From assembly GCA_015143295.1 (NCBI GenBank), contig CM026567.1:13658416-13722415 (forward strand): 64,000 nucleotides of DNA, read 5' to 3'. Position 1 is the stretch's first letter. The number at the start of each line of letters is the position of its first letter. A program made the translations under genes and the position numbers. Source of the DNA: Tetracentron sinense. Its lineage: Eukaryota > Streptophyta > Magnoliopsida > Trochodendrales > Trochodendraceae. This document shows, in pieces, positions 9,659 to 58,059 of this stretch. Under the pieces are notes generated by a model, which was not told where the DNA came from, ran no database searches, and worked only from the letters and a program-made list of their open reading frames with translations.

Positions 9659-9710
9659 CAACGCAAGTTGAATCGTCAAAATCTGATAAGCAAGTCAAAA
9701 GTTACGATCC
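9659..9710 (+). promoter_or_regulatory. Shared U3 module in solo LTR 7552-12360
   Basis: AAGTTGAATCGTCAAAATC followed by AGTCAAAAGTTACG: the same block that precedes the TATA box in the other LTR groups. Here the 14-bp palindromes are replaced by a looser inverted pair, CGACGAA near 9757 and TTCGTCG near 9782. Confidence 0.6.
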
Positions 9711-14078: not shown

Positions 14079-14289
14079 TGAAAGTATGCCTCTTTTTAAT
14101 TTTAGAAACACAGTTCTTAGGGGGCATACATCGAATCCCAAGATCTGACTAAGATTCTAATTGATTTTATTCAATGAAGGTAGGAATAACATTCACCTTT
14201 GCGACTTTGAAATTGGTAAGTCAAATCCACGTTAGAATAGTACTCGCAAAACTTCACAAGTGTCAAGTCTCCTGTCGATTCAGATGAAC
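14079..14289 (-). mobile_element. LARD-like element, outer part of first LTR
   Basis: TGAAAGTATGCCTC... matches the LTR beginning at 63281 almost base for base. The five bases before it (ACTAG, 14074-14078) would be its target duplication; the partner lies outside the window. It is interrupted at 14289 by the Tekay tandem and continues at 31859. Confidence 0.75.
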
Positions 14290-14428
14290 TGTAGAGCCCC
14301 GGACCTTTTCACATTTATGCATGACCCTTCGTAGCCATTTTTTTTCCTTTAAAGTAATGCAATTAATAAATAAGGAAGAAATTGGAAATTCTGAAACGTC
14401 AGAAATGTTCGTTTTCGAAGTACGAACC

Positions 14429-14485
14429 CAACGCAAGTTGAATCGTCAAAATCGGACGAACGAGTCAAAAGTTATGGCCAAAACA
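14429..14485 (+). promoter_or_regulatory. Shared U3 module, first Tekay LTR
   Basis: ACGCAAGTTGAATCGTC, then AAAATCGGACGAACGAG and TCAAAAGTTATGGCC. It is found in every LTR group of this window in the same order relative to the TATA box. I infer a promoter-proximal regulatory block; the sequence alone does not show the bound factor. Confidence 0.6.
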
Positions 14486-14502
14486 GTTTGGACCTGCAGA
14501 CC

Positions 14503-14686
14503 ACCGATCGCTCGGTCCATGGAGCGATCGATCGGTCCAAAACCGATCGCTCGGAGGCTATCGACTGGTCGAGATTTTACTATGGGGAAATTTTCCAGAG
14601 AGTGAAATTTCAACCGATCGCTCGGTTATGAAACCGATCGATCGGTAGGCAACCGATCGATCGGTCATTAACACCGATCGCTCGGT
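14503..14686 (+). promoter_or_regulatory. Array of 14-bp palindromes ACCGATCG(C/A)TCGGT
   Basis: Seven recognisable copies in 184 bp, for example at 14503-14516 and 14673-14686, with a degenerate eighth (ATCGACTGGTCGAG). ACCGATCGATCGGT is a perfect palindrome. The array ends about 60 bp upstream of the TATA box. The form suits a dimeric DNA-binding protein, by inference. Confidence 0.65.
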
Positions 14687-14748
14687 CCTCGCGTTTTACA
14701 GAATTTTCACTAAGGGCATTTTCGGCATTCGGGTGTTATACCCTTTCT

Positions 14749-14756
14749 TATATAGG
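14749..14756 (+). promoter_or_regulatory. TATA box, first Tekay LTR
   Basis: TATATAGG, followed by GCCCGAGCCTTTAGGGCTC. The same arrangement occurs in the LTRs at 21875, 29447 and 40765. Confidence 0.6.
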
Positions 14757-15614
14757 ATTGCCCGAGCCTTTAGGGCTCATTCTCAACCCTTAGAAGATTT
14801 GGGAGATTAGAAGAGAGGAGAAAGGGTTCCTAAATCTAGGGTTTCCATTTTGAAGAGGAATCAAAGGGGTTTGAGACCCTAGATCATCCTCAAGCACGTT
14901 TTCCTTCAAGATCTCGGCTCAAGCTCGGGTGGAGCTCGTGTTCCAAGCTAGGGCAGCAACTCACGGTCGTTTTGGAAAGGGGGATTTCTTCCTCACTTGA
15001 TCAAGGTCGGTACTTTTTACTACCCTCCTAGTTATAGCCTCTCCTTTCCTTATTTCTTCTTGTTTCCTTCATATATATATATATATATTATGAGATGGGT
15101 TGTGAATGGTGAACGGTGAATGATGAATGGAGATGAATGTGGGCGATTGGATGCCGTGTGTATTGATGTGATGGATGAACGGGGAGGGCATTGTACCCAT
15201 AATAAACATACATATGTGATGTGAGTAAAACCCACCTAGAAAAGCATGTTGTAGGGTTAATAAATAATGAACACACTATGTTTGATGAGATGCCAAGGTG
15301 AATAAAATGAGTGATAAATTAAGGGAATACATGTTTAATTATTCATGAAATTGTTAGGGCATATGATAGTGTGTTTCTTACATTTCTCAAATGTGCGACT
15401 TATTACTTGTTCAAATCGTGATATGCTATGCTTTGTAAATTACCCAAATTGTCATATTTAATTCCAAATGCAAGTATGCACACGATCTCACGAGCACGCA
15501 TGCATGACATGGATTACCGACGTTTTTCAAGAATGGGATTTAGAGGTGGGGCATATCCTACGATATGTTTTACCTCGCTTTTGGCAAGGACAAGTAAATC
15601 ATGCATTATCATAA

Positions 15615-15950
15615 GAAGGGTCTCCCTTCCCTCGCAAGTACATACATATCATAAGAAGGGTTTCCCTTCCCTCGCAAGTACATCTCACAAGGACATCTCA
15701 CAAGTGAAAGGACATGACATGAGCATTTAGAAAGAAGGGTCTCCCTTCCCTCACAAGTAGTTTACTCTTCCAAGCATGATACAAGCATGACATGACACGG
15801 CATGACAAGCATGAGCATTTTAGGAGGAAGGGTCTCCCTTCCCTCACAAGTAGATTACTTTTCCGAACAAGCAAGCATGACAAGACATGGCATGACAAGC
15901 ATGGGCAATTAGGAAGAAGGGTCTCCCTTCCCTCACAAGTAGTTTACTTT
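15615..15950 (+). repeat. Five leader hairpins GAAGGG-TCT-CCCTTC
   Basis: Starts near 15615, 15655, 15732, 15829 and 15917. Each has a 6-bp perfect stem with a 3-nt loop, followed by CCTC(A/G)CAAGTA. They lie between stretches of GCATGACATG. Repeated in the other two Tekay LTRs and, with four copies, in the solo LTR at 40765-43044. Confidence 0.7.
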
Positions 15951-16273
15951 CCAAGCAAGCATGACATGGCATGACACGCATGATATGATGAGATAAGACA
16001 ACATGACAAGTTTCAAGTACGGAAATGGTATTTCCAATCAAGTCAAGTGCACGGTGTTTTCAAGGGTTTTATCGGCTATTACGAATTCAAGCATGATTAT
16101 ATACTCCTTTACTTTATTGTCATGATAGGAATTATTCCTGCTTTATATGCTTGAATTGTTTCCTGCTTTATATATGTGAAATGCTTCCTGCTTCCTATAC
16201 TGCTATGGTTTTGCTATGACTATCGGTTAGTATTTAGTACCCGCTGAGTATTCCATGCTCAGCCGTACTTCTT

Positions 16274-16393
16274 ATGTCGGCAGGTTCTGAGGGAGCTGCT
16301 GCTCCATTTGATGTCTGTGCTCCTAGCCCTTGGGTGGAGGAGGAGTACGTCGAGGAGCCTTTGGAGGAACCTCCCGTAGAGGGTTACCATTAG
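16274..16393 (+). CDS. Small acidic frame inside the LTR (39 aa), first copy
   Basis: Starts ATGTCGGCAGG, 10 nt after a hairpin (16243-16263) with a 9-bp stem containing one G-T pair. Product of 39 residues: MSAG at the start, PFDVC at 11-15, PWVEEEY at 19-25, then Glu/Pro-rich to the end. It is strongly acidic, with no membrane segment. The same position in the other LTR groups holds a frame with the same start and core, although the DNA around it differs. It would lie in the 5' leader RNA, about 0.7 kb before gag. It could be an upstream frame that tunes translation, a small protein, or a relic of a longer coding region. I recognise no family. Confidence 0.45.
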   Translation: MSAGSEGAAAPFDVCAPSPWVEEEYVEEPLEEPPVEGYH

Positions 16394-16701
16394 GTGGTTG
16401 TAGATTCTGAGCGAATAGCTGTGGGTGAGATGAGAGATATACATTCATGTATTTTGGCGGGTCTGTCCGCACTTTCTTGTTTTGTTTTCTTTTGTATTAA
16501 CTTGGATTTGCGTATGTATATTCATAGAGGTTTGGTTTGACTTCCGCTGTGTTTTATAGTTATGTTTCCGCTATATTGTCCTCTATGGTATATGCTCTGT
16601 GGGTTTTTGCAGGATGGTTTGTCAAGCAAGTCATGTAAGCCATGATTAGTCGTCCAAAGTTCACTCTAACTCCTAGGGTGGGTTTTGGGTCGCGACAGAA
16701 G

Positions 16702-16713: not shown

Positions 16714-17057
16714 TTAGGCTTTAGGTCTCTAGGGTCACTTAGAATCTAATACCACGGCTTGACAAGAGCATATGTTAGGAAACAAGTTAGGAAGGAAGTG
16801 AGTCGGGAGCGAGTCTGGTTCCAAGTGTAAGACTAAACTTTAGTCTTAGTCAAAATGGTTGTTTCAACCAAGTACGGGTCCTAGGTACGCTAGAACACTG
16901 AAGTATAAGTATAATGTGATGAATACTCTGATGACTTGATGTGATGTATATTAGTATTATACAACTAATACAAATTGAATTATTGTGAAGTGACATTGAA
17001 ATAAACTGTGGTTTCAAGTTAGACTCATGTGGTGTTATTATTCTCAGGACTTTAGTC

Positions 17058-18338
17058 ATGAGACGGAACACACGGGGTCGTGGACCACATACCAGAGCTT
17101 CCTCTTCTTCACGGGATGAGGATGAGCAGCCGGACCTCTCTCAGGTCTTAGGCTCTATTGCTGAGACACTCGCCATCCTGGCGGCTCGGCAAACTATACC
17201 GGCATCAGCGGCACCTACTCCACCGCCCGCAGCTCCAGTACATCGTACAGCTGGAGTTGAGGCATTCAGGAGATTGAGGCCTCCATCCTTCCACGGGAGT
17301 GTGGACCCTCTTACTGCGGAGGCTTGGATCCTCCAGGTTGAGAAGATATTTGCGGTGCTCTCTCCTACAGAGGAAGAGAAAGTGGCATGGGCAGTTTTTA
17401 TGCTAGAGGGCGAAGCCCACCATTGGTGGTTGTCCGCATTGAGGACACGGGACTTGACCATGCAAGGTCAACCGTGGACTTGGGAGGAGTTCAAAGATAC
17501 TTTTTACAAGAAGTATTTTCCGATCGGTGCACGGGAAAAGAAAGAGAGAGAATTCATCAACCTTGAGCAAGGTTCGATGTCTGTGGCCGCTTATGAGGCC
17601 AAGTTCTCAGAATTGTCGAGATTCGCGCCTCATATGGTTGCTACTGAGGCAATGAAGGCGAGAAGATTTGAGCAAGGGCTCAAGGATGTTATTATGGAGA
17701 AGGTTTCCGTTTTCAGGCATGCTACCTACCCTGAAGTGGTAGACAAGGCCTTATTGGTCGAGGACAATTCCGAAGCGGTGTCTAAGAAGAGAGAGTTGGC
17801 GAGAGGCCAAGCCAATAGTTCAGCACCTCCAGAGAGGCGGGCCCGGACTGGTCCTTATCAGTATACATGGCCAGCACCACAGACGAGGCCGACTTATGCT
17901 CCTCCAGCACCCCGGCAGTACGTGCCACAGGCACCTCGACCTCAGGCTCTTCCGGCCCCACGGCCAGTTACCCCTCAGGCAGCGAGGTATACACCACCTC
18001 CGGTCCCTCCAGCCTACACATATGAGGTCTGCACTTCATGCGGCAAAAGGCATCCGGCAGGAGATTGCCGAAGAGCATCTGGTGGATGTTATCATTGCGG
18101 TCGCCAGGGCCACATGATCAGGGATTGCCCTAGCCGACATTTACCAGGCCAGTCTCAGGGTAGTAGGCCCCCGACACGCCCAGCAGGATCATACCAGGCG
18201 TCATCTCAGACTACCCGGTCTACACCTCAGTCTCGCCAGGCGAACCAGGGGCGTGTATTTGCTTTGACAGAGGGTGATGCACTTGCATCTGATGATGTGG
18301 TGCAAGGTACGCGTTTGGAATCATTTTGTTATTCATGA
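17058..18338 (+). CDS. gag: Gag, first Tekay body
   Basis: A 426-codon frame starting at MRRNTRGRGP, the same start seen in the minus-strand relatives. Residues about 70-230 form the retrotransposon gag domain ([44 protein letters not shown]). A Pro/Ala-rich linker follows. Then come a Cys/His cluster [13 protein letters not shown] at about 324-336 and a CCHC zinc knuckle [14 protein letters not shown] at about 344-357, which would bind genomic RNA. The protein would form the virus-like particle in the cytoplasm. It appears whole. A spacer of about 100 bp that changes quickly between copies separates it from pol. Confidence 0.9.
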   Translation: MRRNTRGRGPHTRASSSSRDEDEQPDLSQVLGSIAETLAILAARQTIPASAAPTPPPAAPVHRTAGVEAFRRLRPPSFHGSVDPLTAEAWILQVEKIFAVLSPTEEEKVAWAVFMLEGEAHHWWLSALRTRDLTMQGQPWTWEEFKDTFYKKYFPIGAREKKEREFINLEQGSMSVAAYEAKFSELSRFAPHMVATEAMKARRFEQGLKDVIMEKVSVFRHATYPEVVDKALLVEDNSEAVSKKRELARGQANSSAPPERRARTGPYQYTWPAPQTRPTYAPPAPRQYVPQAPRPQALPAPRPVTPQAARYTPPPVPPAYTYEVCTSCGKRHPAGDCRRASGGCYHCGRQGHMIRDCPSRHLPGQSQGSRPPTRPAGSYQASSQTTRSTPQSRQANQGRVFALTEGDALASDDVVQGTRLESFCYS

Positions 18339-18377
18339 TTGATATGTTGCGTTTTATTCCTTGTGTAGATACTTGGT

Positions 18378-21300
18378 ATGATATATATATATACCTATGT
18401 GTATACTCTGTTGATGCATGGATTAACTCCGCTAGTTAAAATTTCAGGAACCCTACTAGTCAATGAGTATTTGGCTCGAGTATTGATTGATACCGGGTCT
18501 ACTCATTCGTTTGTCTCGCCGAGTTTTTCAGAAGGTTTTTCTGCAGGGCCAAGTCAGCTAGAACCGGAGTTAGCCATTTCGACTCCTCTCGGCAAAACAG
18601 TAGTGGCAGATAAAGTGTATAGAAATAGTGTGGTCCAAGTTGGAAGCCACGAATTGGCGGTCGATCTCATCGTCCTTGGATTCCAAGACTTTGATATTAT
18701 ATTGGGAATGGATTGGTTAGCAGCACATCATGGGCATGTAGCTTGCTTTGAGAAGATGGTACTCTTCAAGCCGGTAAAAGGAAAACCATTTCACTTTCGG
18801 GGGTTAAAAAGTAGAGACATTGCCCGTTTTGCGGCGTTGAGCTTAGCTAACCCCGAGGCAAAGGACTCATCGACTATTCCGGTTGTGAGTGAGTTCCTGG
18901 ATGTATTTCCAGAGGAGTTGCCAGGATTGCCTCCAGACAGGGAGATTGAGTTTATGATCGAGCTTGCACCAGGCACAGCTCCTGTATTCAGAGCTCCATA
19001 TAGAATGGCCCCTATTGAACTCAAGGAGTTGAAGACTCAGTTGGAGGAATTGCAAGGCCTTGGCTTCATTCGACCAAGTGTCTCACCGTGGGGTGCCCCG
19101 GTGTTGTTTGTTAAGAAGAAAGATGGCTCGATGCGGATGTGTGTCGATTACAGGCAATTGAACAAAGTCACTATAAAGAATAGGTATCCCTTGCCTAGGA
19201 TTGATGACTTGTTCGATCAGTTGAAGGGAGCGAGATTTTTCTCAAAGATAGATCTTCGATCGGGTTATCACCAGTTGAAGATTAAGGCGGAAGATGTTCC
19301 CAAAACTGCTTTCAGGACTCGATATGGACACTACGAGTTCTTGGTGATGCCTTTTGGACTCACGAACGCGCCGACAGCCTTTATGGATTTGATGAACCGG
19401 GTGTTCCGGCCATATCTTGATAGATGCGTGATTGTATTTGTTGATGACATTTTGGTCTATTCCCAGACACGGGAAGATCACACACGCGACCTACGCCTTG
19501 CTTTGGAAATGCTAAGAGAGCACAAGCTATACGCCAAACTTAGCAAGTGTGAGTTTTGGTTGGAAGAGGTGGCATTCCTAGGCCACGTTGTATCGGCGGA
19601 AGGCATTTCGGTGGATCCAAAGAAGATAGAGGCAGTCATGAATTGGGCGAGGCCCAAGAGTGTCACGGAGATACGCAGTTTTCTTGGGTTGGCAGGCTAC
19701 TACAGGAGATTCGTAGAGGGTTTCTCCAGCCTTGCAGCACCGCTCACTTACCTGACAAGGAAGAACGCTAAGTTTGTATGGAGCGACAAGTGTGAGATCA
19801 GTTTCACGGAACTGAAGAAGAGGCTTACCACAGCTCCTGTCCTTACGGTGCCATCCGGACCTTATGGGTACGAGGTGTATAGTGATGCCTCACACGTTGG
19901 ACTTGGGTGTGTACTCATGCAGCACAAGAAAGTCATTGCCTATGCATCAAGGCAGTTGAAGGAGCATGAGAAGAACTATCCTACGCACGACTTGGAGCTT
20001 GCGGCGGTCGTGTTTGCACTTAAGATTTGGCGTCATTACCTTTATGGGGTGGAGTTCTATGTGTTCACTGATCACAAGAGTCTCAAGTATCTCTTTTCCC
20101 AAAAGGAGCTGAATCTAAGGCAAAGGCGTTGGATGGAATTTCTGAAGGACTATGATTGTACCATTCAATACCACCCGGGTAAAGCAAATGTAGTGGCTGA
20201 TGCTTTGAGTAGAAGACCTCCGGGGTTATTAGCATGCATGTTAGTGCAGGAATGGAAGCTACTTGAAGACTTGGCAAATCTGGACATTAGTGTGAATGAC
20301 TCTGTCCGTAGTCCTATCTTGGCAAATGTCACGGTTCGGCCATACATTATAGATTTGATCCAAGAATACCAAGCCACGGATGCTGAATTGTTGGCTTATC
20401 GGGACAAGGAAGTTGCTAAGGGTAGTGAGGACTTCTCTCTCACTAGCCGAGGTGCTATCACATTCAAGGGAAGGCTGTGTGTTCCAGCCAATGCAAATCT
20501 TCGGAGGGAGATTATGGATGAAGCCCACCGGGCAAAGTACACTGTGCATCCAGGGGGTACGAAGATGTACCGGAACCTCAAGAGTCACTTTTGGTGGCGG
20601 AATATGAAGAGGGAGGTTGCGGAATATGTAGCACGGTGCTTGGTGTGCCAACAGGTGAAAGCAGAACACATGCGGCCCGCAGGTCTATTACAGTCCCTTC
20701 CGATTCCCGAGTGGAAATGGGAGAACATATCCATGGATTTCATAGTTGGCTTGCCAAAGACGGCAAGGGGTTCAGATGCGATATGGGTAGTAGTGGATCG
20801 TTTGACGAAGTCCGCTCACTTCTTGCCTTACCGAACTACTTTCAACTCTAGTCAGTTAGCTGCTTTGTACATCAAGGAAGTGGTGAGGTTGCACGGAGTG
20901 CCTGTCAGTATTGTGTCGGATCGGGATCCAAGATTCACATCACGATTCTGGAAAAGCTTTCAGGAAGCTATGGGTTCCCGACTTGATTTCAGCACTGCTT
21001 TTCATCCACAAACGGATGGACAAACCGAGAGGGTGAACCAAGTAATAGAAGATATGCTTCGGGCTTGTATGCTGGATTTCAAAGGCAGTTGGGAAGAGCA
21101 CTTGCCTTTGGTGGAGTTCGCCTACAACAATAGCTATCAGGCGAGTATCCAAATGGCTCCGTTCGAGGCTTTGTATGGGCGAAGCTGCAGGTCTCCTCTC
21201 TACTGGGATGAGGTAGGAGAAAGAAAAGTACTTGGTCCGGAGTTGATTGAGCAAACTGCTAGTATAGTCAAGATCATCCGGGATCGGTTGAAAGCCGCTC

Positions 21301-21773
21301 AAGATCGCCAAAAGAGCTATGCAGACACGCGCCGCAGGGACTTGGAATTTCAAGTAGGGGATCGAGTCTTTGTGAAAGTATCTCCTAGCAAAGGGATTAT
21401 GAGATTCGGCAAAAGAGGCAAGCTTAGTCCTCGCTATGTTGGACCGTTTGAGATTATCACGCGGGTTGGTGAAGTTGCTTATCGAGTAGCTCTTCCACCT
21501 CACATGGCCGCGGTTCACAACGTTTTCCACGTGTCTATGCTTCGGAAGTACATTGCGGACCCTTCGCATATACTAGAATTGGAACCGTTGGAAATTCGAG
21601 AAGATCTCACGTTGGTTGAGAAGCCGATTCACATATTGGATCGGAGAGATCAAGTGCTTCGCAACAAGACAATCCCTTTGGTTCTTGTGCAATGGAAACA
21701 CCATGCTCGGGAAGAAGCTACATGGGAGCGTGAAGCCGAAGTCAAAGCGAAGTACCCGGAATTGTTTGAATGA
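18378..21773 (+). CDS. pol: Pol polyprotein, first Tekay body
   Basis: A 1131-codon frame. Domains by rough residue: aspartic protease with [11 protein letters not shown] (DTG at 38-40); reverse transcriptase about 190-410 with FVDDILVYS near 354; RNase H from about 495 ([20 protein letters not shown]). The integrase zinc region is at about 715-760 (final CLVCQQ). The integrase core has Asp in MDFIVGLP near 785, Asp in VSDRDPRF near 848 and Glu in [10 protein letters not shown] near 891. The C-terminal part ([12 protein letters not shown]; then EEATWERE) matches the chromodomain-like end of Tekay integrases, thought to steer insertion to heterochromatin. All catalytic motifs are visible and the frame looks whole. 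It is followed by the hairpin and polypurine tract before the next LTR. Confidence 0.93.
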
Positions 21774-21874: not shown

Positions 21875-22084
21875 TGTAGAGCCCCGGACCTTTTCACATT
21901 TATGCATGACCCTTCGTAGCCATTTTTCCTTTAAAGTAATGCAATTAATAAATAAGGAAGAAATTGGAAATTCTGAAACGTCAGAAATGTTCGTTTTCGA
22001 AGTACGAACCCAACGCAAGTTGAATCGTCAAAATCGGACGAACGAGTCAAAAGTTATGGCCAAAACAGTTTGGACCTGCAGACC

Positions 22085-22268
22085 ACCGATCGCTCGGTCC
22101 ATGGAGCGATCGATCGGTCCAAAACCGATCGCTCGGAGGCTATCGACTGGTCGAGATTTTGCTATGGAGAAATTTTCCAGAGAGTGAAATTTCAACCGAT
22201 CGCTCGGTTATGAAACCGATCGATCGGTAGGCAACCGATCGATCGGTCATTAACACCGATCGCTCGGT
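22085..22268 (+). promoter_or_regulatory. Palindrome array, middle Tekay LTR
   Basis: Same seven 14-bp palindromes and spacing as in the outer LTRs, although the surrounding LTR is diverged. Confidence 0.65.
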
Positions 22269-23847
22269 ACTCGCGTTTTACAGAATTTTCACTAAGGGCA
22301 TTTTCGGCATTCGGGTGTTATACCCTTTCTTATATAGGATTGCCCGAGTCTTTAGGGCTCATTCTCAACCCTTAGAAGATTTGGGAGATTAGAAGAGAGG
22401 AGAAAGGGTTCCTAAACCTAGGGTTTCCATTCTGAAGAGAAATCAAAGGGGTTTGAGACCCTAGATCATCCTCAAGCACGTTTTCCTTCAAGATCTCGGC
22501 TCAAGCTCGTGGAGCTCGTGTTCCAAGCTAGGGCAGCAACTCACGGTCGTTTTGGAAAGGGGGATTTCTTCCCACTTGATCAAGGTCGGTACTTCTTGCT
22601 ACCCTCCTAGTTATAGTCTCTCTTTCCTTAGTTTCTTTGTGTTCCTTATATACATCCATATATTATGAGATGGGTTGTGAATGGTGAACTGGTGAATGAT
22701 GAATGGAGATGAATGTGGGCGATTGGATGCCGTGTGTATTGATGTGATGGATGAACGGGGAGGGCATTGTACCCATAATAAACATACATATGTGATGTGA
22801 GTAAAACCCACCTAGAAAAGCATGTTGTAGGGTTAATAAATAATGAACACACTATGTTTGATGAGATGCCAAGGTGAATAAAATGAGTGATAAATTAAGG
22901 GAATACATGTTTAATTATTCATGAAATTGTTAGGGCATATGATAGTGTGTTTCTTACATTTCTCAAATGTGCGACTTATTACTTGTTCAAATCGTGATAT
23001 GCTATGCTTTGTAAATTACCCAAATTGTCATATTTAATTCCAAATGCAAGTATGCACACGATTTCACGAGCACGCATGCATGACATGGATTACCGACGTT
23101 TTTCAAGAATGGGATTTAGAGGTGGGGCATATCCTACGATATGTTTTACCTCGCTTTTGGCAAGGACAAGTAAATCATGCATTATCATAAGAAGGGTCTC
23201 CCTTCCCTCACAAGTACATACATATCATAAGAAGGGTTTCCCTTCCCTCGCAAGTACATCTCACAAGGACATCTCACAAGTGAAAGGACATGACATGAGC
23301 ATTTAGAAAGAAGGGTCTCCCTTCCCTCACAAGTAGTTTACTCTTCCAAGCATGATACAAGCATGACATGACATGGCATGACAAGCATGAGCATTTTAGG
23401 AAGAAGGGTCTCCCTTCCCTCACAAGTAGATTACTTTTCCGAACAAGCAAGCATGAATACATGGCATGACAAGCATGGGCATTTAGGAAGAAGGGTCTCC
23501 CTTCCCTCACAAGTAGTTTACTTTCCAAGCAAGCATGACATGGCATGACACGCATGATAGGATAAGATAAGACAACATGACAAGTTTCAAGCAAGGAAAT
23601 GGTATTTTCAGTCAAGTCAAGTGCACGGTGTTTTCAAGGGTTTCATCGGCTTTTATGAATTCAAGCATGATTATATACTCCTTTACTTTATTGTCATGAT
23701 ATGAATTATTCCTGCTTTATATGCTTGAATTGTTTCCTGCTTTATATATGTGAAATGCTTCCTGCTTCCTATACTGCTATGGTTTTGCTATGACTATTGG
23801 TTAGTATTTAGTACCCGCTGAGTATTCCATGCTCAGCCGTACTTCTT

Positions 23848-23967
23848 ATGTCGGCAGGTTCTGAGGGAGCTGCTGCTCCATTTGATGTCTGTGCTCCTAG
23901 CCCTTGGGTGGAGGAGGAGTACGTCGAGGAACCTTTGGAGGAACCTCCCATAGAGGGTTATCAGTAG
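23848..23967 (+). CDS. Small acidic frame inside the LTR (39 aa), middle copy
   Basis: Same length, start and core as the frame at 16274. The few base changes leave it open and change only the last residues (PIEGYQ instead of PVEGYH). This is weak evidence that the frame is kept. Confidence 0.45.
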   Translation: MSAGSEGAAAPFDVCAPSPWVEEEYVEEPLEEPPIEGYQ

Positions 23968-24269
23968 GTGGTGTTAGATTCTGAGTGGATTAGCTGTGGG
24001 TGAGCATGAGTGATTATATCCATGTATTTTGGTGGGCATGTCCGCACTTTCTTGTTTTGTTTTCTTTTGTATTAACTTGGACCATGTGTATATACTTAGA
24101 GGTTTGTTAGACTTCCGCTGTGTTTTATCGTTATGCTTCCGCTGTTATCCTCTATTGTATATGTTCTGTGAGTTTTGCAGGTTGGTTCGTCAAGCAAGTC
24201 ATGTAAGAATGATTAAGTCGTCCAAGATTCACTCTAACTCCTAGGGTGGGTTTTGGGTCGCGACAGAAG

Positions 24270-25986: not shown

Positions 25987-28900
25987 TGCATGGATTAACT
26001 CCGCTAGTTAAAATTTCAGGAACCCTACTAGTCAATGAGTATTTGGCTCGAGTGTTGATTGATACCGGGTCTACTCATTCGTTTGTCTCGCCGAGTTTTT
26101 CAGAAGGCTTTTCTGTGGAGCCTAGTCAGCTAAAACCGGAGTTAGCCATTTCGACTCCGCTCGGCAAAACAGTATTGGCAGATAAAGTGTATAGAAATAG
26201 TGCGGTCCAAGTTGGAAGCCACGAGTTGGCGGTTGACCTCATCGTCCTTGGATTCCAAGACTTTGATATTATATTGGGAATGGATTGGTTAGCAGCACAT
26301 CATGGGCATGTAGCTTGCTTTGAGAAGATGGTACTCTTCAAGCCGGTAAAAGGAAAACCATTTCACTTTCGGGGGTTAAAAAGTAGAGACATTGCCCGTT
26401 TTGCGGCGTTGAGCTTAGCTAACCCCGAGGCAAAGGACTCATCGACTATTCCGGTTGTGAGTGAGTTCCTGGATGTATTTCCAGAGGAGTTGCCAGGATT
26501 GCCTCCAGACAGGGAGATTGAGTTTATGATCGAGCTTGCACCAGGCACAGCTCCTGTATTCAGAGCTCCATATAGAATGGCCCCTATTGAACTCAAGGAG
26601 TTGAAGACTCAGTTGGAGGAATTGCAAGGCCTTGGCTTCATTCGACCAAGTGTCTCACCATGGGGTGCCCCGGTGTTGTTTGTTAAGAAGAAAGATGGCT
26701 CGATGCGGATGTGTGTCGATTACAGGCAATTGAACAAAGTCACTATAAAGAATAGGTATCCCTTGCCTAGGATTGATGACTTGTTCGATCAGTTGAAGGG
26801 AGCGAGATTTTTCTCAAAGATAGATCTTCGATCGGGTTATCACCAGTTGAAGATTAAGGCGGAAGATGTTCCCAAAACTGCTTTCAGGACTCGATATGGA
26901 CACTACGAGTTCTTGGTGATGCCTTTTGGACTCACGAACGCGCCGGCAGCCTTTATGGATTTGATGAACCGGGTGTTCCGGCCATATCTTGATAGGTGCG
27001 TGATTGTATTTGTTGATGACATTTTGGTCTATTCCCAGACACGGGAAGATCACACACGCGACCTACGCCTTGCTTTGGAAATGCTAAGAGAGCACAAGCT
27101 ATACGCCAAACTTAGCAAGTGTGAGTTTTGGTTGGAAGAGGTGGCATTCCTAGGCCACGTTGTATCGGCGGAAGGCATTTCGGTGGATCCAAAGAAGATA
27201 GAGGCAGTCATGAATTGGGCGAGGCCCAAGAGTGTCACGGAGATACGCAGTTTTCTTGGGTTGGCAGGCTACTACAGGAGATTCGTAGAGGGTTTCTCCA
27301 GCCTTGCAGCACCGCTCACTTACCTGACAAGGAAGAACGCTAAGTTTGTATGGAGCGACAAGTGTGAGATCAGTTTCACGGAACTGAAGAAGAGGCTTAC
27401 CACAGCTCCTGTCCTTACGGTGCCATCCGGACCTTATGGGTACGAGGTGTATAGTGATGCCTCACACGTTGGACTTGGGTGTGTACTCATGCAGCACAAG
27501 AAAGTCATTGCCTATGCATCAAGGCAGTTGAAGGAGCATGAGAAGAACTATCCTACGCACGACTTGGAGCTTGCGGCGGTCGTGTTTGCACTTAAGATTT
27601 GGCGTCATTACCTTTATGGGGTGGAGTTCTATGTGTTCACTGATCACAAGAGTCTCAAGTATCTCTTTTCCCAAAAGGAGCTGAATCTAAGGCAAAGGCG
27701 TTGGATGGAATTTCTGAAGGACTATGATTGTACCATTCAATACCACCCGGGTAAAGCAAATGTAGTGGCTGATGCTTTGAGTAGAAGACCTCCGGGGTTA
27801 TTAGCATGCATGTTAGTGCAGGAATGGAAGCTACTTGAAGACTTGGCAAATCTGGACATTAGTGTGAATGACTCTGTCCGTAGTCCTATCTTGGCAAATG
27901 TCACGGTTCGGCCATACATTATAGATTTGATCCAAGAATACCAAGCCACGGATGCTGAATTGTTGGCTTATCGGGACAAGGAAGTTGCTAAGGGTAGTGA
28001 GGACTTCTCTCTCACTAGCCGAGGTGCTATCACATTCAAGGGAAGGCTGTGTGTTCCAGCCAATGCAAATCTTCGGAGGGAGATTATGGATGAAGCCCAC
28101 CGGGCAAAGTACACTGTGCATCCAGGGGTACGAAGATGTACCGGAACCTCAAGAGTCACTTTTGGTGGCGGAATATGAAGAGGGAGGTTGCGGAATATGT
28201 AGCACGGTGCTTGGTGTGCCAACAGGTGAAAGCAGAACACATGCGGCCCGCAGGTCTATTACAGTCCCTTCCGATTCCCGAGTGGAAATGGGAGAACATA
28301 TCCATGGATTTCATAGTTGGCTTGCCAAAGACGGCAAGGGGTTCAGATGCGATATGGGTAGTAGTGGATCGTTTGACGAAGTCCGCTCACTTCTTGCCTT
28401 ACCGAACTACTTTCAACTCTAGTCAGTTAGCTGCTTTGTACATCAAGGAAGTGGTGAGGTTGCACGGAGTGCCTGTCAGTATTGTGTCGGATCGGGATCC
28501 AAGATTCACATCACGATTCTGGAAAAGCTTTCAGGAAGCTATGGGTTCCCGACTTGATTTCAGCACTGCTTTTCATCCACAAACGGATGGACAAACCGAG
28601 AGGGTGAACCAAGTAATAGAAGATATGCTTCGGGCTTGTATGCTGGATTTCAAAGGCAGTTGGGAAGAGCACTTGCCTTTGGTGGAGTTCGCCTACAACA
28701 ATAGCTATCAGGCGAGTATCCAAATGGCTCCGTTCGAGGCTTTGTATGGGCGAAGCTGCAGGTCTCCTCTCTACTGGGATGAGGTAGGAGAAAGAAAAGT
28801 ACTTGGTCCGGAGTTGATTGAGCAAACTGCTAGTATAGTCAAGATCATCCGGGATCGGTTGAAAGCCGCTCAAGATCGCCAAAAGAGCTATGCAGACACG

Positions 28901-29344
28901 CGCCGCAGGGACTTGGAATTTCAGGTAGGGGATCAAGTTTTTGTGAAAGTATCTCCTAGCAAAGGGATTATGAGATTCGGCAAAAGAGGCAAGCTTAGTC
29001 CTCGCTATGTTGGACCGTTTGAGATTATCACGCGGGTTGGTGAAGTTGCTTATCGAGTAGCTCTTCCACCTCACATGGCCGCGGTTCACAACGTTTTCCA
29101 CGTGTCTATGCTTCGGAAGTACATTGCGGACCCTTCGCATATACTAGAATTGGAACCGTTGGAAATTCGAGAAGATCTCACGTTGGTTGAGAAGCCGATT
29201 CACATATTGGATCGGAGAGATCAAGTGCTTCGCAACAAGACAATCCCTTTGGTTCTTGTGCAATGGAAACACCATGCTCGGGAAGAAGCTACATGGGAGC
29301 GTGAAGCCGAAGTCAAAGCGAAGTACCCGGAATTGTTTGAATGA
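25987..29344 (+). pseudogene. pol: Pol region, second Tekay body (fossil)
   Basis: Protease, reverse transcriptase, RNase H, integrase and the chromodomain-like end in the same order as in the first body, with all the main motifs recognisable ([28 protein letters not shown]). Broken, with about one break. The first 150 or so residues differ noticeably from the first body, while the rest is almost identical. Confidence 0.88.
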
Positions 29345-29446: not shown

Positions 29447-29659
29447 TGTAGAGCCCCGGACCTTTTCACATTTATGCATGACCCTTCGTAGCCATTTTTT
29501 TTCCTTTAAAGTAATGCAATTAATAAATAAGGAAGAAATTGGAAATTCTGAAATGTCAGAAATGTTTGTTTTCGAAGTACGAACCCAACGCAAGTTGAAT
29601 CGTCAAAATCGGACGAACGAGTCAAAAGTTATGGCCAAAACAGTTTGGACCTGTAGACC

Positions 29660-29843
29660 ACCGATCGCTCGGTCCATGGAGCGATCGATCGGTCCAAAAC
29701 CGATCGCTCGGAGGCTATCGACTGGTCGAGATTTTACTATGGGGAAATTTTCCAGAGAGTGAAATTTCAACCGATCGCTCGGTTATGAAACCGATCGATC
29801 GGTAGGCAACCGATCGATCGGTCATTAACACCGATCGCTCGGT
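29660..29843 (+). promoter_or_regulatory. Palindrome array, last Tekay LTR
   Basis: Same array as in the first LTR. One of the C-to-T changes lies just before it. Confidence 0.65.
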
Positions 29844-31429
29844 CCTCGCGTTTTACAGAATTTTCACTAAGGGCATTTTCGGCATTCGGGTGTTATACCC
29901 TTTCTTATATAGGATTGCCCGAGCCTTTAGGGCTCATTCTCAACCCTTAGAAGATTTGGGAGATTAGAAGAGAGGAGAAAGGGTTCCTAAATCTAGGGTT
30001 TCCATTTTGAAGAGGAATCAAAGGGGTTTGAGACCCTAGATCATCCTCAAGCACGTTTTCCTTCAAGATCTCGGCTCAAGCTCGGGTGGAGCTCGTGTTC
30101 CAAGCTAGGGCAGCAACTCACGGTCGTTTTGGAAAGGGGGATTTCTTCCTCACTTGATCAAGTCGGTACTTTTTACTACCCTCCTAGTTATAGCCTCTCC
30201 TTTCCTTATTTCTTCTTGTTTCCTTCATATATATATATATATATTATGAGATGGGTTGTGAATGGTGAACGGTGAATGATGAATGGAGATGAATGTGGGC
30301 GATTGGATGCCGTGTGTATTGATGTGATGGATGAACGGGGAGGGCATTGTACCCATAATAAACATACATATGTGATGTGAGTAAAACCCACCTAGAAAAG
30401 CATGTTGTAGGGTTAATAAATAATGAACACACTATGTTTGATGAGATGCCAAGGTGAATAAAATGAGTGATAAATTAAGGGAATACATGTTTAATTATTC
30501 ATGAAATTGTTAGGGCATATGATAGTGTGTTTCTTACATTTCTCAAATGTGCGACTTATTACTTGTTCAAATCGTGATATGCTATGCTTTGTAAATTACC
30601 CAAATTGTCATATTTAATTCCAAATGCAAGTATGCACACGATCTCACGAGCACGCATGCATGACATGGATTACCGACGTTTTTCAAGAATGGGATTTAGA
30701 GGTGGGGCATATCCTACGATATGTTTTACCTCGCTTTTGGCAAGGACAAGTAAATCATGCATTATCATAAGAAGGGTCTCCCTTCCCTCGCAAGTACATA
30801 CATATCATAAGAAGGGTTTCCCTTCCCTCGCAAGTACATCTCACAAGGACATCTCACAAGTGAAAGGACATGACATGAGCATTTAGAAAGAAGGGTCTCC
30901 CTTCCCTCACAAGTAGTTTACTCTTCCAAGCATGATACAAGCATGACATGACACGGCATGACAAGCATGAGCATTTTAGGAGGAAGGGTCTCCCTTCCCT
31001 CACAAGTAGATTACTTTTCCGAACAAGCAAGCATGACAAGACATGGCATGACAAGCATGGGCAATTAGGAAGAAGGGTCTCCCTTCCCTCACAAGTAGTT
31101 TACTTTCCAAGCAAGCATGACATGGCATGACACGCATGATATGATGAGATAAGACAACATGACAAGTTTCAAGTACGGAAATGGTATTTCCAATCAAGTC
31201 AAGTGCACGGTGTTTTCAAGGGTTTTATCGGCTATTACGAATTCAAGCATGATTATATACTCCTTTACTTTATTGTCATGATAGGAATTATTCCTGCTTT
31301 ATATGCTTGAATTGTTTCCTGCTTTATATATGTGAAATGCTTCCTGCTTCCTATACTGCTATGGTTTTGCTATGACTATCGGTTAGTATTTAGTACCCGC
31401 TGAGTATTCCATGCTCAGCCGTACTTCTT

Positions 31430-31549
31430 ATGTCGGCAGGTTCTGAGGGAGCTGCTGCTCCATTTGATGTCTGTGCTCCTAGCCCTTGGGTGGAGGAGGA
31501 GTACGTCGAGGAGCCTTTGGAGGAACCTCCCGTAGAGGGTTACCATTAG
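31430..31549 (+). CDS. Small acidic frame inside the LTR (39 aa), last copy
   Basis: Identical to the frame at 16274, as expected from the near-identity of the two outer LTRs. It adds no independent evidence. Confidence 0.45.
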   Translation: MSAGSEGAAAPFDVCAPSPWVEEEYVEEPLEEPPVEGYH

Positions 31550-31858
31550 GTGGTTGTAGATTCTGAGCGAATAGCTGTGGGTGAGATGAGAGATATACAT
31601 TCATGTATTTTGGCGGGTCTGTCCGCACTTTCTTGTTTTGTTTTCTTTTGTATTAACTTGGATTTGCGTATGTATATTCATAGAGGTTTGGTTTGACTTC
31701 CGCTGTGTTTTATAGTTATGTTTCCGCTATATTGTCCTCTATGGTATATGCTCTGTGGGTTTTTGCAGGATGGTTTGTCAAGCAAGTCATGTAAGCCATG
31801 ATTAGTCGTCCAAAGTTCACTCTAACTCCTAGGGTGGGTTTTGGGTCGCGACGTGAAC

Positions 31859-35757: not shown

Positions 35758-35863
35758 CTCGCTTTAGCGGGCTTCCATCTCGCTTGAGCGGGCTTCCATC
35801 TCGCTCGAGCGGGTTACTCCCTAGCCTCTAAAACTCGGTTTTGATCAATCTCGCTCGAGCGAG
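35758..35863 (-). promoter_or_regulatory. Palindrome cluster CTCGCTCGAGCGAG, left minus LTR
   Basis: Four copies with changes, the last one (35850-35863) a perfect 14-bp palindrome. It lies between the TATA-like TATATACCC (minus strand, near 35700) and the shared U3 module at about 35891-35950. Confidence 0.6.
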
Positions 35864-36364
35864 TTTTTCTGCAAAAATGCACTTTGATAAATCAGCAATA
35901 ACTTTTGACTTGCTTGTCCGATTTTGACGATTCAAATTGCATTGGATTCATATTTCGATGAAAAACAACTTTTATGTTTGGTAAAATTTCTAATTCTTCT
36001 TTATTGTTTGACCATTTTTCCCTTAAAGCTGACTGATCTGCAATGGGTTGCGACAGTCCACATTTGCAGCCAAACCGATTTTGGAAATCGGATGGTTGAC
36101 TCTACCTTGACTCACAATCAAGAAAAGTGATCAACATGATCCTTGAAGAGGGCTCCAATACCTTTCTAAAAATTCAAGAATCGCTCTATTCCAATCAGCC
36201 ATGAATGAACTAGAGCTACGTACAGTTGAGGGTATTGTTAAGCCATAATTTCTTTTTGACACTTAGAATATTCATATGCTGTATTCCTTCATTCCAAGCA
36301 CCCAAAACTTAAGAAAACACATCTTAAGGCTTAAATACATGTTAAAAAGATCCAGGGTTCTACA

Positions 36365-40652: not shown

Positions 40653-40909
40653 AACATGTACGGCAGAGCGTGGAATACTCAGCGAGCCAAAACTACTAGC
40701 TAACAATGTTAAAATAACAAAATACCACATGCAAGTACTCTCTAAGAATAATAATCATACTATTTGTAGAGTCCCGAACTTTTGACATTTATGCATGACA
40801 CTTTCGTAGCCATTTTTCCTTTAAAGTAGTGTTATTAATAAATAAGGAAGAAATTGGAAATTCTGAAACGTCAGAAATGTTCCTTTTCGAAGTACGAACC
40901 CAACGCAAG

Positions 40910-40970
40910 TTGAATCGTCGAAATCTGACGAGCGAGTCAAAAGTTATGGCCGAAACAAGGAGGAAAAATA
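40910..40970 (+). promoter_or_regulatory. Shared U3 module, solo LTR
   Basis: CAACGCAAGTTGAATCGTCG, then GAAATCTGACGAGCGAGTC and AAAAGTTATGGCC: nearly the Tekay version, directly before the palindromes. Confidence 0.6.
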
Positions 40971-40988
40971 TGGAGTTTTGCTGCAAGT

Positions 40989-41176
40989 TACGACCGATCA
41001 TACACACCCTACGAACGATCGTAGGTGAGTTACGATCGATCGTAGAGGTTACGATTGATCGTAGAATCTCAGGAATTGACAAAAGTTTCGGGTCGATATA
41101 CGATCGATCGTGGATAATTTACGATGGATCGTAGTACAACTTACGATCGATCGTAGACAGGTTACGATCGATCGTA
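40989..41176 (+). promoter_or_regulatory. Array of 14-bp palindromes TACGATCGATCGTA
   Basis: Eight copies, the first degenerate and three of them perfect, in 188 bp. Same copy length, span and place as the ACCGATCGATCGGT array of the Tekay LTR. The inner CGATCG is shared, while the outer bases on both arms differ together (ACCG/CGGT against TACG/CGTA). Confidence 0.7.
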
Positions 41177-42623
41177 GATCGCGAATCCAGAAATTTTAAT
41201 CGGATTTTTAGGATTTCTTCACTACCTATAAAGGTTGCCCGAGCCTTTAGGGCTCTCATTCACACACCTAGAGTATTTTTGAGAGTTAGAGAGAAAGGAG
41301 AAGGGGATCCTAACCTAGGGTTTGTTCTTGAAGGAGAAATCAAAGGTTTGATACCCTAGATCACCCCAAGCTTCGGTCAAGCTCGGGAGGACCACGTTCT
41401 CCAAGCTCGGTAGCATCTCACGCACGTTTTTGCAAAGGTTTTCTTCCCTATTCGGGTCGGTACTCTTTGCTACCCTCCTAGTTATAGCTTCTCTTTTCCT
41501 TTATTTCTTCTCGTTTTCCTTCACTTATATATGTGTTATGAGATTGGTGGTATGAAGGGTGAATGGAGGTGGATGTTGGCGAATGGATGCCGTGTGGATG
41601 ATGTGATGAATGAATGGGAAAGGGCATTGTACTAATAAGGAACATACAAGTGTGATGTGAGCATAACCCACCTAGAAAAGCATGATCTAGATTTAAGTGA
41701 ATAATCAACACACCCTATGTTTGATGAAATGCCAAGGTGAACAAAATAAATGATAAATTAAGGGAACCCGTGCTTAAGTACTCTTGAAATTTGTTAGGGT
41801 TCATGATAGTGTGTTTCTTACATTTCTTAAAATGTGTAGATTATTACTCACTTAAATTGTTGTATGTTATGCTTTGTGAATTACCCCAAATTTCCATATT
41901 TAATTCCAAATGCAAGTATGCACACGATTTCACGAGCACGAATGCATGGCATGTTTTATCGGCGTTTTCAAGAACACGGTTTAGAGGTGGGGCATTTCGT
42001 ACGATATGTTTTACCTCGCTTTTGGCAAGGACAAGACAAACATGCATTTTCATAAGAAGGGTCTCCCTTCCCTCGCAAGTGCATACATAACATAAGAAGG
42101 GTCTCCCTTCCCTCGCAAGTGCATCTCACAAGGACATCTCACAAGTGAATCTAACAAGTGGAAGGACAAACATGAGCATTCTAGGAAGAAGGGTCTCCCT
42201 CCCTCACAAGTAGTTTACTCTTCCGAGTAGGCATGACATGACATAGCATGACAAGCATGAGCATTCTAGGAAGAAGGGTCTCCCTTCCCTCACAAGTAGA
42301 TTACTTTTCAGAACAAGCAAGCATGATACATGCATGATACAAGCATGACATGGCATGACACGCATGATATGACAAGATAAGACAAACATGACAAGTTTTC
42401 AAGCACGGAAATGGTATTTCCAGTCAAGTCAAGTGCACAAGGTCTTCAAGGATTTCATCGGCTTTTCTGAATGCAAGCATGATTACAAACTGCTTTACTT
42501 CCTTGTATGATATGAACTGTTCCTATCTTATATATATATATATGTGTGCATTGCTATCTCATGCTATGACTATTGGTTAGTATTTAGTACTCGCTGAGTA
42601 TTCCATGCTCAGCCGTACTTCTT

Positions 42624-42740
42624 ATGTCGGCAGGTTCTGAGGGAGCTGCTGCTCCATTTGATGTTTGTGCTCCTGGTCCATGGGTGGAGGAGGAGTACGT
42701 CGAGGAGCCTTTGGAGGAACCTCCCGTAGAGGGTTATTAG
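42624..42740 (+). CDS. Small acidic frame inside the solo LTR (38 aa)
   Basis: MSAG start, PFDVC at 11-15, PWVEEEY at 19-25, ending EGY. One residue shorter than in the Tekay LTR. Hairpin at 42593-42613. Confidence 0.45.
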   Translation: MSAGSEGAAAPFDVCAPGPWVEEEYVEEPLEEPPVEGY

Positions 42741-44521
42741 TGGGTGGTGTTAGATTCTGAGTGGATTAGCTGTGGGTGAGCATGAGTGATTATATCCATG
42801 TATTTTGGTGGGCATGTCCGCATTTTCTTTGTTTTGTTTTCTTTTGTATTAAACTTGGACCATGTGTATATACTTAGAGGTTTGTTAAACTTCCGCTATG
42901 GTTTATAGTTATGCTTCCGCTGTTACCCTCTATTGTATATGTTCTATGGGTTTTGCAGGTTGGTTCGTCAAGCAAGTCCTGTAAGTCATGATTAAGTCGT
43001 CCAAGATTCACTCTAACTCCTAGGGTGGGTTTTGGGTCGCGACACTATTAATTACAAATTCATGAGTAATTACGAATCACAAGTTCATGCTTGAAAACTC
43101 CATCATGGAAAACCGTTCTTAAAACTTGTTCTTTTCATGGAAAGCCAATCATCTTATGCATGCTTATGAGTTCTTATGAATGCTTGTGAGTCTCATATTT
43201 TCTTATGAGTTCTTGTGAGCTAGCGAATTCTTATGACTTTTCTTGTGAGCTTATGAGCTTCCTTGTGAGCTTTCTTGTGAGCTTATGATCCTTGGAGACA
43301 TATTCAAGATCTTAGACTTGATCCTTGTGAGCATGAAGTAACCGATCTTAGAATACCAACCCAAAGTTTGGCTTTGTCAAATGCTTATGCTTCTTTCTTA
43401 TGAATGCCTTTGAAAAAAACCTTGTTCATGACTCTTGAAATACATGCTTATACAAAAACTCGATCATGCATAATTTATCGTGCTTGGTGTGCTTGTGAGC
43501 ATCATTGTGTATATATGTAAAGCCTTAACAATTCATATAAGTTCATACAAGTCATAGTAGCATTGTAGTATCATTGGATAATTCTAAAACATAATATGTT
43601 TCCTTACATTTCATCACAACATCAAGAGTATGGCTTTTAGCCTAATTCATCACCTCATTAAGACCATGTCATTTTCATCACATCATACTAAAATCATGAT
43701 TTATTTAGGGAATAATAATGATCTCCCACATGTATAACCCTATTGATTCTTGTATTGCAACACCCCCAATTTATAAACCCCTATTTACTCATTTGTTCAT
43801 ATTGTGGTTCACCCAAAATCCCTTATGTGTTATTTGCATCATAACTTGCATCATAACAAGACTAAAATCACCCATTAAATCATCTTTTTCATCTTTATAT
43901 GATAACAAAGCTAGATCATAGTTTTTCTTACAAATATAGTCATATTAATCCTCTTGTTGAAAAACCCCCAAATTTCAAATCCCAAATTTACTCACTTGAT
44001 CATAATCTAGTTTACCCTAAATCATACATTCACTATTTGCATTATAGCAAGGTTAATCTCTATTTAAATCACCCCTTTTAATCATCTTTTCTATCTTTGT
44101 ATAATAACAAGGTTAGGTAGTAGAATCACTAACATCACATTCAAAATCATACTTTCACTATTGCATGATAACAAAGCTAGATAATAGTTTTACTTGCTAT
44201 TTGTATCATAGCAAAGCTAGGTAGTAGTTTCACTTTGCAAGGATCAAATCTTAGTGTGGAATGATGATCTAACACAAGCTTGAGCTTGGAAATGCAGATC
44301 CATGCTCAAGAAAGAAGGTTCGAGCTTGTGGAAGCTTTGAGAAGTGATGATTCGATCTCCTCTTTGGTCTCAAACAAAATCCTCCTTTGGAAACCTAGGT
44401 TTCCTTCTTTTTTCTCTCAAAAAGTCTATCTCTAAGTGTTAGATTCCTTGGACCCCCGAAAAATTGGGTATATAAGGTGTTAGGTAAGTGAAAAACATAA
44501 AAGAAAACATTTTTGGGCAAT

Positions 44522-44627
44522 CTCACTTGAGCGGGCTTCCATCTTGCTCGAGCGGGTTACTCCCTGGCCTCTAAAACTCGGTTTTGATCAATCTCACTCG
44601 AGCGACTTTGGATCTCGCTCGAGCGAG
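44522..44627 (-). promoter_or_regulatory. Palindrome cluster CTCGCTCGAGCGAG, middle minus LTR
   Basis: Four copies, the last (44614-44627) perfect. The shared U3 module follows at about 44657-44720 on the minus strand. Confidence 0.6.
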
Positions 44628-45128
44628 TTTTTCTGCAAAAACGGACTTTGATAAATCAGCCATAACTTTTGACTCACTTTTCCGATTTTGACGATTCAAC
44701 TTGCTTTGGATTCGTCTTTCGAAGGAAAACAAATTTTATGTTTTGTATAATTTCTAATTCTTTTTTATTTTTGGACCATTTTTCCCTTAAAGCTGACTGA
44801 TAAGCAATGGGTTGCGACAGTCCACATTTGCAGCCAACCCGATTTTGGAAATCGGATGTTTGACTCTACCTTAACTCACAATCAAGAAAAGTGATCAACA
44901 TAATCCTTGAAGAGGGTTCCAATACCTTTCTAAAAATTTGAGAATCGCTCTATTCCAATTAGCCATGAACGAACTAGAGCTACGTACAGTTGAGGGTATT
45001 GTTAAGCCATAATTTCTTTTTGACACTTAGAGTATTCATATACTGTATTCCTTCATTCCAAGCACCCAAAACTTAAGAAAACACATCTTAAGGCTTAAAT
45101 ACATGTTAAAAAGATCCAGGGTTCTACA

Positions 45129-57954: not shown

Positions 57955-58059
57955 CTCACTCGAGCAGGCTTCCATCTCGCTCGAGCGGATTACTCCCTGG
58001 CTCAAAAACTCGGTTTTGATCAATCTCGCTCAAGCAGGTTTGGATCTTGCTCGAGAGAG
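57955..58059 (-). promoter_or_regulatory. Palindrome cluster CTCGCTCGAGCGAG, right minus LTR
   Basis: Four copies, all with some decay here. Same place relative to the U3 module as in the other two LTRs of the tandem. Confidence 0.5.

Follow-up and report, generated by a model that had tools for sequence, protein, structure and literature searches.

Palindrome arrays with family-specific arms in the U3 region of Ty3/gypsy retrotransposons of Tetracentron sinense, candidate sites for a dimeric DNA-binding protein

RESULTS

The stretch of Tetracentron sinense DNA analyzed here (64,000 nucleotides; hereafter the window) is a nest of LTR retrotransposons. Its features are given below, where "module" denotes a 43-bp block of U3 and "array" the cluster of 14-bp palindromic sites that accompanies it.

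9665 to 9707, plus strand: module of a TGTAGAACCCC-type LTR, followed by looser TTCGTCGACGAA-like sites
14290 to ~31853, plus strand: tandem element, LTR-internal-LTR-internal-LTR, from self-comparison, with the 5-bp TGAAC at 14285-14289 and 31854-31858
14290 to 16697, plus strand: LTR 1, ACCG class, from self-comparison, with ends TGTAGAGCCCC...GTCGCGACA
14435 to 14477, plus strand: module of LTR 1, with two GTCAAAA copies 19 bp apart
14503 to 14686, plus strand: ACCG array of LTR 1, seven sites with at most one arm mismatch
14749 to 14756, plus strand: TATA-like box of LTR 1, downstream of the array
16989 to 18338, plus strand: gag open frame (Pfam: capsid, zinc knuckle)
18369 to 21773, plus strand: pol open frame (Pfam: protease, RT, RNase H, integrase, weak chromodomain)
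21875 to 24265, plus strand: LTR 2, with module 22017-22059, ACCG array 22085-22268, and TATA box at 22331
29447 to 31853, plus strand: LTR 3, with module 29592-29634, ACCG array 29660-29843, and TATA box at 29906
35758 to 35938, minus strand: CTCG array 35758-35863 and module 35896-35938 of a minus-strand LTR
40765 to 43044, plus strand: solo LTR, TACG class, with module 40907-40949, array 40989-41176, and a perfect 5-bp target duplication, CTATT
44522 to 44702, minus strand: CTCG array 44522-44627 and module 44660-44702 of a minus-strand LTR
46353 to 46395, plus strand: module of a TGTAGAACCCC-type LTR, with weak sites
50736 to 50778, plus strand: module of a TGTAGAACCCC-type LTR, with weak sites
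57955 to 58134, minus strand: decayed CTCG array 57955-58059, with near 14-mers only, and module 58092-58134

The tandem element is a recent double element, with outer LTRs (LTR 1 and LTR 3) that are 99.83% identical and a single 5-bp target duplication flanking the whole. The hallmarks of LTR retrotransposons are present, namely, an LTR pair, a primer-binding site, a polypurine tract, and 5-bp target duplications (TGAAC and CTATT). TGGTATCAGAGC, which we take to be a tRNA-Met primer-binding site, follows LTR 1, and the purine tract AAGGGGGGAAGGA precedes LTR 2. The Pfam domains found between 16989 and 21773 follow the Ty3/gypsy order (protease, RT, RNase H, integrase). Scores above the Pfam cutoffs were obtained for SH3_Tf2-1, strongly so, and for the integrase zinc-binding domain; the integrase core scored below and was placed by the zinc-binding domain, and the chromodomain (PF00385) at the integrase C terminus (E value of 1.4e-4, 22.1 bits) was under its cutoff of 25.1. 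The elements of the window are Ty3/gypsy and perhaps chromovirus-like; the Tekay/Del lineage would be our guess from the long LTR. Besides gag and pol, the tandem element contains no sense frame of at least 200 amino acids. A 210-amino-acid frame antisense to pol (20940-21572 and 28511-29143, minus strand), with no Pfam match for the one copy tested, is probably incidental. The downstream part of the LTRs carries tandem repeats rich in CTCACAAG-like words (15607-15983, 23183-23557, 30763-31139, and 42112-42348), and the solo LTR at 40765-43044 is flanked by an internal region on one side and an LTR on the other, both matching older elements of the minus strand.

The initial annotation of this DNA stated that every LTR group has the same block upstream of its TATA box, which is confirmed by the ten module copies of the window, seven on the plus and three on the minus strand; the copy at 9665-9707 has two mismatches in its second half (at 9693). 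The GTCAAAA of the module resembles what we take to be the W-box core, on the opposite strand. In the 1.16-Gb genome (1,479 contigs), the module has 4,197 exact matches (2,085 and 2,112 on the two strands), and a looser, shorter form with at most three mismatches has 32,121 (16,102 and 16,019), against 0 for the reversed control in both searches. Its two halves lie 10 bp apart in all of the first ~100 of the 4,197 places listed, with 4 to 14 bp permitted, and the sequence of these 10 bp varies.

We examined 91 module copies: the 10 of the window and 81 outside it, the latter from 80 loci of a single contig (C1). These loci were drawn, not at random, from the first hundred or so places listed in the exact and looser searches, and many copies of the commonest spacer were passed over for the sake of variety, so that class proportions are not genome frequencies. 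All comparisons concern one genome, the end of an array was set at a simple TATA pattern or at 330 bp, and the class arms were derived from this same sample. RT was matched in 2 of the 20 long loci (8.7 to 10 kb), L018 and L019, at 46% and 81 to 82% identity; the element identity of most sampled LTRs is thus read from the LTR.

Counting as a site two 5-bp arms with at most one mismatch among their ten letters, we found at least two dyad-symmetric 14-bp sites after the module in 80 of the 91 copies and at least four in 59, while two or more occurred in 0 of 91 upstream flanks and in none of five letter-shuffled sets. Eleven copies have fewer than two good sites. A module common without arrays would have spoken against the initial proposal, and in this sample it is rarely array-free. 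The ACCG, TACG, and CTCG arrays of the window lie where they had first been placed (coordinates above). The arms surround a 4-bp center, often TCGA but also TCGC, ACGA, TCTA, GAGC, and others. Among the sites described as 14-bp palindromes, ACCGATCGCTCGGT is imperfect, its center being asymmetric and its 5-bp arms alone matching. Exact 14-bp palindromes in the window are ACCGATCGATCGGT (six), TACGATCGATCGTA (three), and CTCGCTCGAGCGAG (two), and the third CTCG array (57955-58059) has near ones only.

Where three or four arm types had been proposed, the 91 copies contain 11 classes: ACCGA, TACGA, TGCGA, GACGA, TCCGA, GGCGA, CTCGC, ACTCG, ATTCG, ACCGG (whose right arm is often AGCGG), and AAGGA. 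The TCCG and AAGGA classes come from one LTR each, and ACCGG and GGCG from two each, one of each being assigned by hand. Among the 69 LTRs with a perfect-arm site, 68 carry one class, and the remaining one has one site of a second class. The TGTAGAACCCC group had been credited with a looser pair; it is indeed the weakest group, none of its three copies in the window having more than one site at up to one arm mismatch. A relative, L084, has a full ATTCGTCGACGAAT. The claim that arrays keep their length, number, and position was too strong. Number and length vary, and what recurs is a pitch of 19 to 22 bp between adjacent site starts (316 of 467), a count that admits sites with up to three arm mismatches and thus includes some spurious ones. 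This pitch is frequent in the ACCG (169/231), TACG (77/109), TGCG (31/42), ACCGG (10/12), CTCG (9/16), and ACTCG (6/7) classes; the other classes gave 5/9 (GACG), 2/4 (TCCG), 2/6 (AAGGA), 1/1 (GGCG), and, as the exception, 4/30 (ATTCG). Many arrays are split into two blocks by a wider gap of 49 to 50 or 71 bp. The CpG observed/expected ratio reaches 1.88 to 2.61 in ACCG and TACG arrays against 0.57 to 0.64 for the remainder of those LTRs (1.88 against 0.64 in LTR 1) and is weaker, 1.15, for CTCG. A simple GATC microsatellite was rejected as a description, since the CTCG, ACTCG, ATTCG, and ACCGG classes lack a GATC period, yet many of their sites have the TCGA center. Just below the array, a single TTGGCTCGAGCCAA palindrome with a TCGA center occurs in L045, L046, L047, L051, L054, L065, L085, and L086.

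Arrays also exist where the module is absent. We took 12 loci (stretches of 701 bp) with array sites and no exact module listed nearby: 4 have the module at one or two mismatches, and the other 8 score for the full module at the level of shuffled sequence, one of these (L097) retaining a half-module with one mismatch. TACG, TGCG, and ACCG class sites stand in module-free sequence at L089 (C1:303700-304400), L090, L095, and L096, and TACG and TGCG sites are mixed at L089.

Arm symmetry was also measured by anchoring on TCGA alone, a procedure that does not demand symmetry. Within arrays, the arm match was 0.73 over 277 sites (permuted maximum, 0.51), or 0.59 against 0.43 when distinct pairs were counted once. 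It was 0.27 over 149 sites in upstream flanks (null, 0.26). Below the TATA box, 33 sites gave 0.32, 6 of them being fully matched, where the null had a mean of 0.24 and a maximum of 0.34. Fifteen other palindromic 4-mers within the arrays gave 0.17 to 0.38. For the classes not named in the initial annotation, whose labels are themselves set by palindromic sites, the match was 0.75 (n = 60; permuted maximum, 0.57). Genome-wide, where 14-mer counts are of repeats and possibly lower bounds, matched sites numbered 30,033 for ACCGATCGATCGGT, 4,871 for TACGATCGATCGTA, and 6,889 for TGCGATCGATCGCA, and TACG/ACCG hybrids, which combine the arms of ACCGATCGATCGGT and TACGATCGATCGTA, numbered 57 (28 and 29). 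The matching of both arms claimed for a few groups thus extends across families and, in the pairs counted, across the genome. It is not absolute: TGCG/TACG hybrids are common (1,027 and 1,011, on the same lower-bound reading), showing that arms one transition apart mix. CACGATCGATCGTG, a palindrome absent from our sample, has 4 sites (possibly also a lower bound), so that particular symmetric arms, and not symmetry in general, are abundant.

Per arm position, we counted 440 single-arm deviations from the class arm and 16 double deviations to the same letter; changes of both arms at mirrored positions numbered 42, including these 16, against 24.6 under independence. C>T (95) and G>A (107) deviations show no RNA-strand bias, and the one-sided site AGCGATCGATCGGT, a G-G mismatch if read as RNA, is kept in 23 LTRs.

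When palindrome class was set against LTR phylogeny, as had been suggested, it changed repeatedly. The tree of the 220-bp upstream flank, which passes the LTR start in one group, requires 28 class changes (minimum, 11), and that of the 140-bp flank requires 27 (minimum, 10); the tree of the TATA region and below (70 rows) requires 17. Many inner branches are weakly supported; if just the best-supported branches of both upstream trees are counted, ACCG must still have changed at least 4 to 6 times and TACG at least 4 times. Two modes of change can be distinguished. In the first, a whole cassette is exchanged between similar flanks: the upstream part of the TACG solo LTR (40765) is 93% identical to that of an ACCG LTR of the window, while the linkers of the two arrays, compared without their sites, have a similarity of 0.49, which is the level of shuffled sequence (0.48, with 109 of 200 shuffles reaching the observed value); this is a cassette exchange. 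In the second, arms change inside a homologous backbone. Linkers of the central gap exceeded all 200 shuffle sets for ACCG-ACCGG (57; maximum, 30), for AAGGA-ACCGG (36; maximum, 24), and, narrowly, for AAGGA-ACCG (35; maximum, 34), the AAGGA comparisons drawing on a single LTR; these three classes thus appear to share one array backbone with different arms. Outside this group, gap linkers did not rise above shuffles, save marginally for TACG-TGCG (25; maximum, 24). This null covers six class pairs with full sets; its first version used at most 12 members per class. The initial interpretation is partly supported: arms match across families, and class changes repeatedly, but part of what had been called exchange is cassette swapping and not stepwise cochange. 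Local tandem duplication is visible as 40-bp dimers in L085, and such events could propagate a single altered site along the array.

DISCUSSION

We favor, as somewhat better than an even guess, the reading that a dimeric DNA-binding protein, probably of the host, acts on the LTR promoter through the arrays, which would be its family-specific binding sites. The geometry of two 5-bp arms around a 4-bp center would suit a dimer. In favor of this reading we count the arm match of TCGA-anchored sites, the preponderance of matched over TACG/ACCG hybrid 14-mers, the single class of nearly every LTR, the recurrent pitch, the homologous linkers beneath different arms, the repeated class changes on the flank trees, and the even distribution of deviations between strands. 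That families thereby escape or recruit a particular host factor, as first suggested, would be conjecture. We propose a model in which sites clustered in the U3 enhancer are bound by a symmetric dimer of a DNA-binding protein or of a small protein family, each 14-bp site offering two 5-bp half-sites around the 4-bp center, often TCGA. With a pitch of 19 to 22 bp, dimers on adjacent sites would share a face of the double helix, and the dimer would drive transcription from the TATA box just downstream. The half-site would be particular to the element family, while the geometry and, loosely, the center would be retained. Multiplication of sites by local tandem duplication would let every site of an LTR evolve in concert with the others, and whole arrays would also pass between related LTRs with similar flanks, presumably via template switching. 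We infer a host origin for the protein from the window elements, which show only gag-pol as long sense frames.

Several observations argue against this dimer reading: the TGCG/TACG hybrids, the failure of the pitch in the ATTCG class and its weakness in AAGGA, the 11 weak copies, the module-free arrays, the 6 of 33 fully matched TCGA sites downstream of the TATA box, the folding of array RNA (see below), and the restriction to a single genome and contig. We also count against it the excess of both-arm changes over independence, which weakly favors base pairing. Any test of DNA site against RNA stem is limited by the probable passive decay of the majority of copies.

The arrays could instead act as RNA, with the 3'-proximal U3 of the transcript folding into hairpins that serve the element RNA or, as has been argued for the palindrome-rich LTRs of maize Sireviruses, host small-RNA production. 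Arms of 5 bp around four bases would indeed make a short stem-loop, and five array stretches fold with z scores of -5.2, -4.2, -9.0, -2.4, and -3.0 (the two LTR control stretches gave 0.6 and -0.9), but any palindrome array folds strongly, whatever its cause. In maize, palindrome regions of Sireviruses are described as small-RNA hotspots in two reports (PMC5311732, PMC10760457). The strand bias expected from G-U tolerance is absent, and we rejected such a wobble signature; stems need neither identical arms in all sites of an LTR nor a regular 19- to 22-bp pitch. The persistence of AGCGATCGATCGGT, with its G-G mismatch, suits half-site tolerance better than a stem. Hairpins seem to us unlikely as the main explanation and less likely than a protein dimer, the two being mutually compatible. 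Improbable in our view is that the arms are mere carriers of CG, the arrays providing dense, even CpGs as a methylation target or an unmethylated island. The CpG enrichment and the three CG steps, 4 bp apart, of several classes would fit, but this leaves unexplained the matching of non-CpG outer letters (A..T, T..A, G..C) and the 4 sites of CACGATCGATCGTG against thousands for its sister palindromes, and the AAGGA class has arms without CpG.

We give no more credence to neutral repeat dynamics, in which a chance palindrome of an ancestral U3 would have been amplified by slippage and would drift with its family, read by no factor. The dimers of L085 and the travel of arrays as cassettes agree with such a process, which should have yielded many nonsymmetric repeat types; each of the 11 classes has symmetric arms in a common 5-4-5 layout, and both arms have changed inside a homologous backbone. 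Least probable of all, and by our estimate very much so, is an anti-silencing protein encoded by the element itself, like VANC of VANDAL transposons, whose motifs evolve in the same style, by tandem repeats, according to PMC5735166. Gag and pol are the sole long sense frames of the tandem element, and the antisense frame has no Pfam match; a VANC-like protein could be supplied by another element of the genome.

If the dimer reading is pursued, a bolder and quite tentative hypothesis could be that a plant family of dimeric DNA-binding proteins is engaged in a recognition race with Ty3/gypsy elements. Its specificity, or the choice of paralogue, would have shifted often, the palindromes recording its half-sites with TCGA as the usual center contact, and Sireviruses may share the reader. 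If this is true, a single cryptic regulator of the host would be common to two retrotransposon superfamilies that are unrelated. We also looked for a LOB-domain binding site and obtained no useful lead.

Beyond the retrotransposons, two plant systems resemble parts of this model. The target motifs of VANC in Arabidopsis VANDAL DNA transposons are, according to PMC5735166, short, family specific, arranged in tandem, and changing together by tandem repeat formation, as are the arrays here. They differ in that the reader protein is encoded by the VANDAL element, unlike in our tandem element, and in that the main text does not describe the motifs as palindromes ("palindrom" occurs 0 times). Three VANC motif words gave 1, 2, and 4 matches in our 91 stretches and were rejected on this account. 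At the siren loci of Arabidopsis, REM/GDE1 proteins acting with CLSY3/4 are a host DNA-binding family, predicted to form dimers, on repeated motifs of loci controlled by small interfering RNA, as PMC12270911 describes. Their motifs, unlike our arrays, are direct repeats of TTTTGCTTAT or AAGCGGAT with 1-nucleotide spacing, and we rejected them as candidates after finding 0 matches for either in the 91 LTR stretches.

The closest parallel is found in Sireviruses (Ty1/copia), whose LTRs carry high-copy palindromic repeated-motif (RM) boxes ahead of the TATA box; the arms of these boxes are specific to the element, and their clusters make up CpG islands (Bousios et al. 2010, PMC2829016). According to the same work, RMs occur in many species, all those listed but one have a CGG-CCG core, and the authors were unable to name one binding site, shared by the RMs, for a single factor. 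The palindrome-rich regions of maize Sireviruses reportedly evolve fast (PMC5311732, PMC10760457), and cis-regions of other transposable element families are arrays of repeats, sometimes palindromic, by citation in PMC10760457. Among the open-access matches listed, we found no report of LTR palindrome arrays in plant Ty3/gypsy elements beyond the Sirevirus work. The arrays described here work like Sirevirus boxes, with numerous palindromes grouped ahead of the TATA box and an enrichment in CpG, and the published Vitis RM CGGTCGACCG has three matches in 2 of the 91 stretches, within ACCGG-class sites. They are not Sirevirus: the integrase domains follow RNase H, as opposed to the Ty1/copia integrase that precedes RT, and the CGG-CCG core is missing from 10 of the 11 class arms, the ACCGG class being the one that carries CGGTCGACCG. 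The design was thus already known from Ty1/copia. Unlike the Sirevirus boxes, our data set comes from one genome, with a mostly TCGA-type center, 11 classes behind a common module, cassette exchange, and counts of hybrid sites. In it, the promoters of high-copy plant retrotransposons turn over in two ways, in place and by cassette. For a dyad-symmetric site of one geometry, a single genome offers natural variants by the tens of thousands, and these use 11 or more different half-sites, so that the reader of Sirevirus-type palindromes, in question since 2010, becomes directly testable by binding assays.
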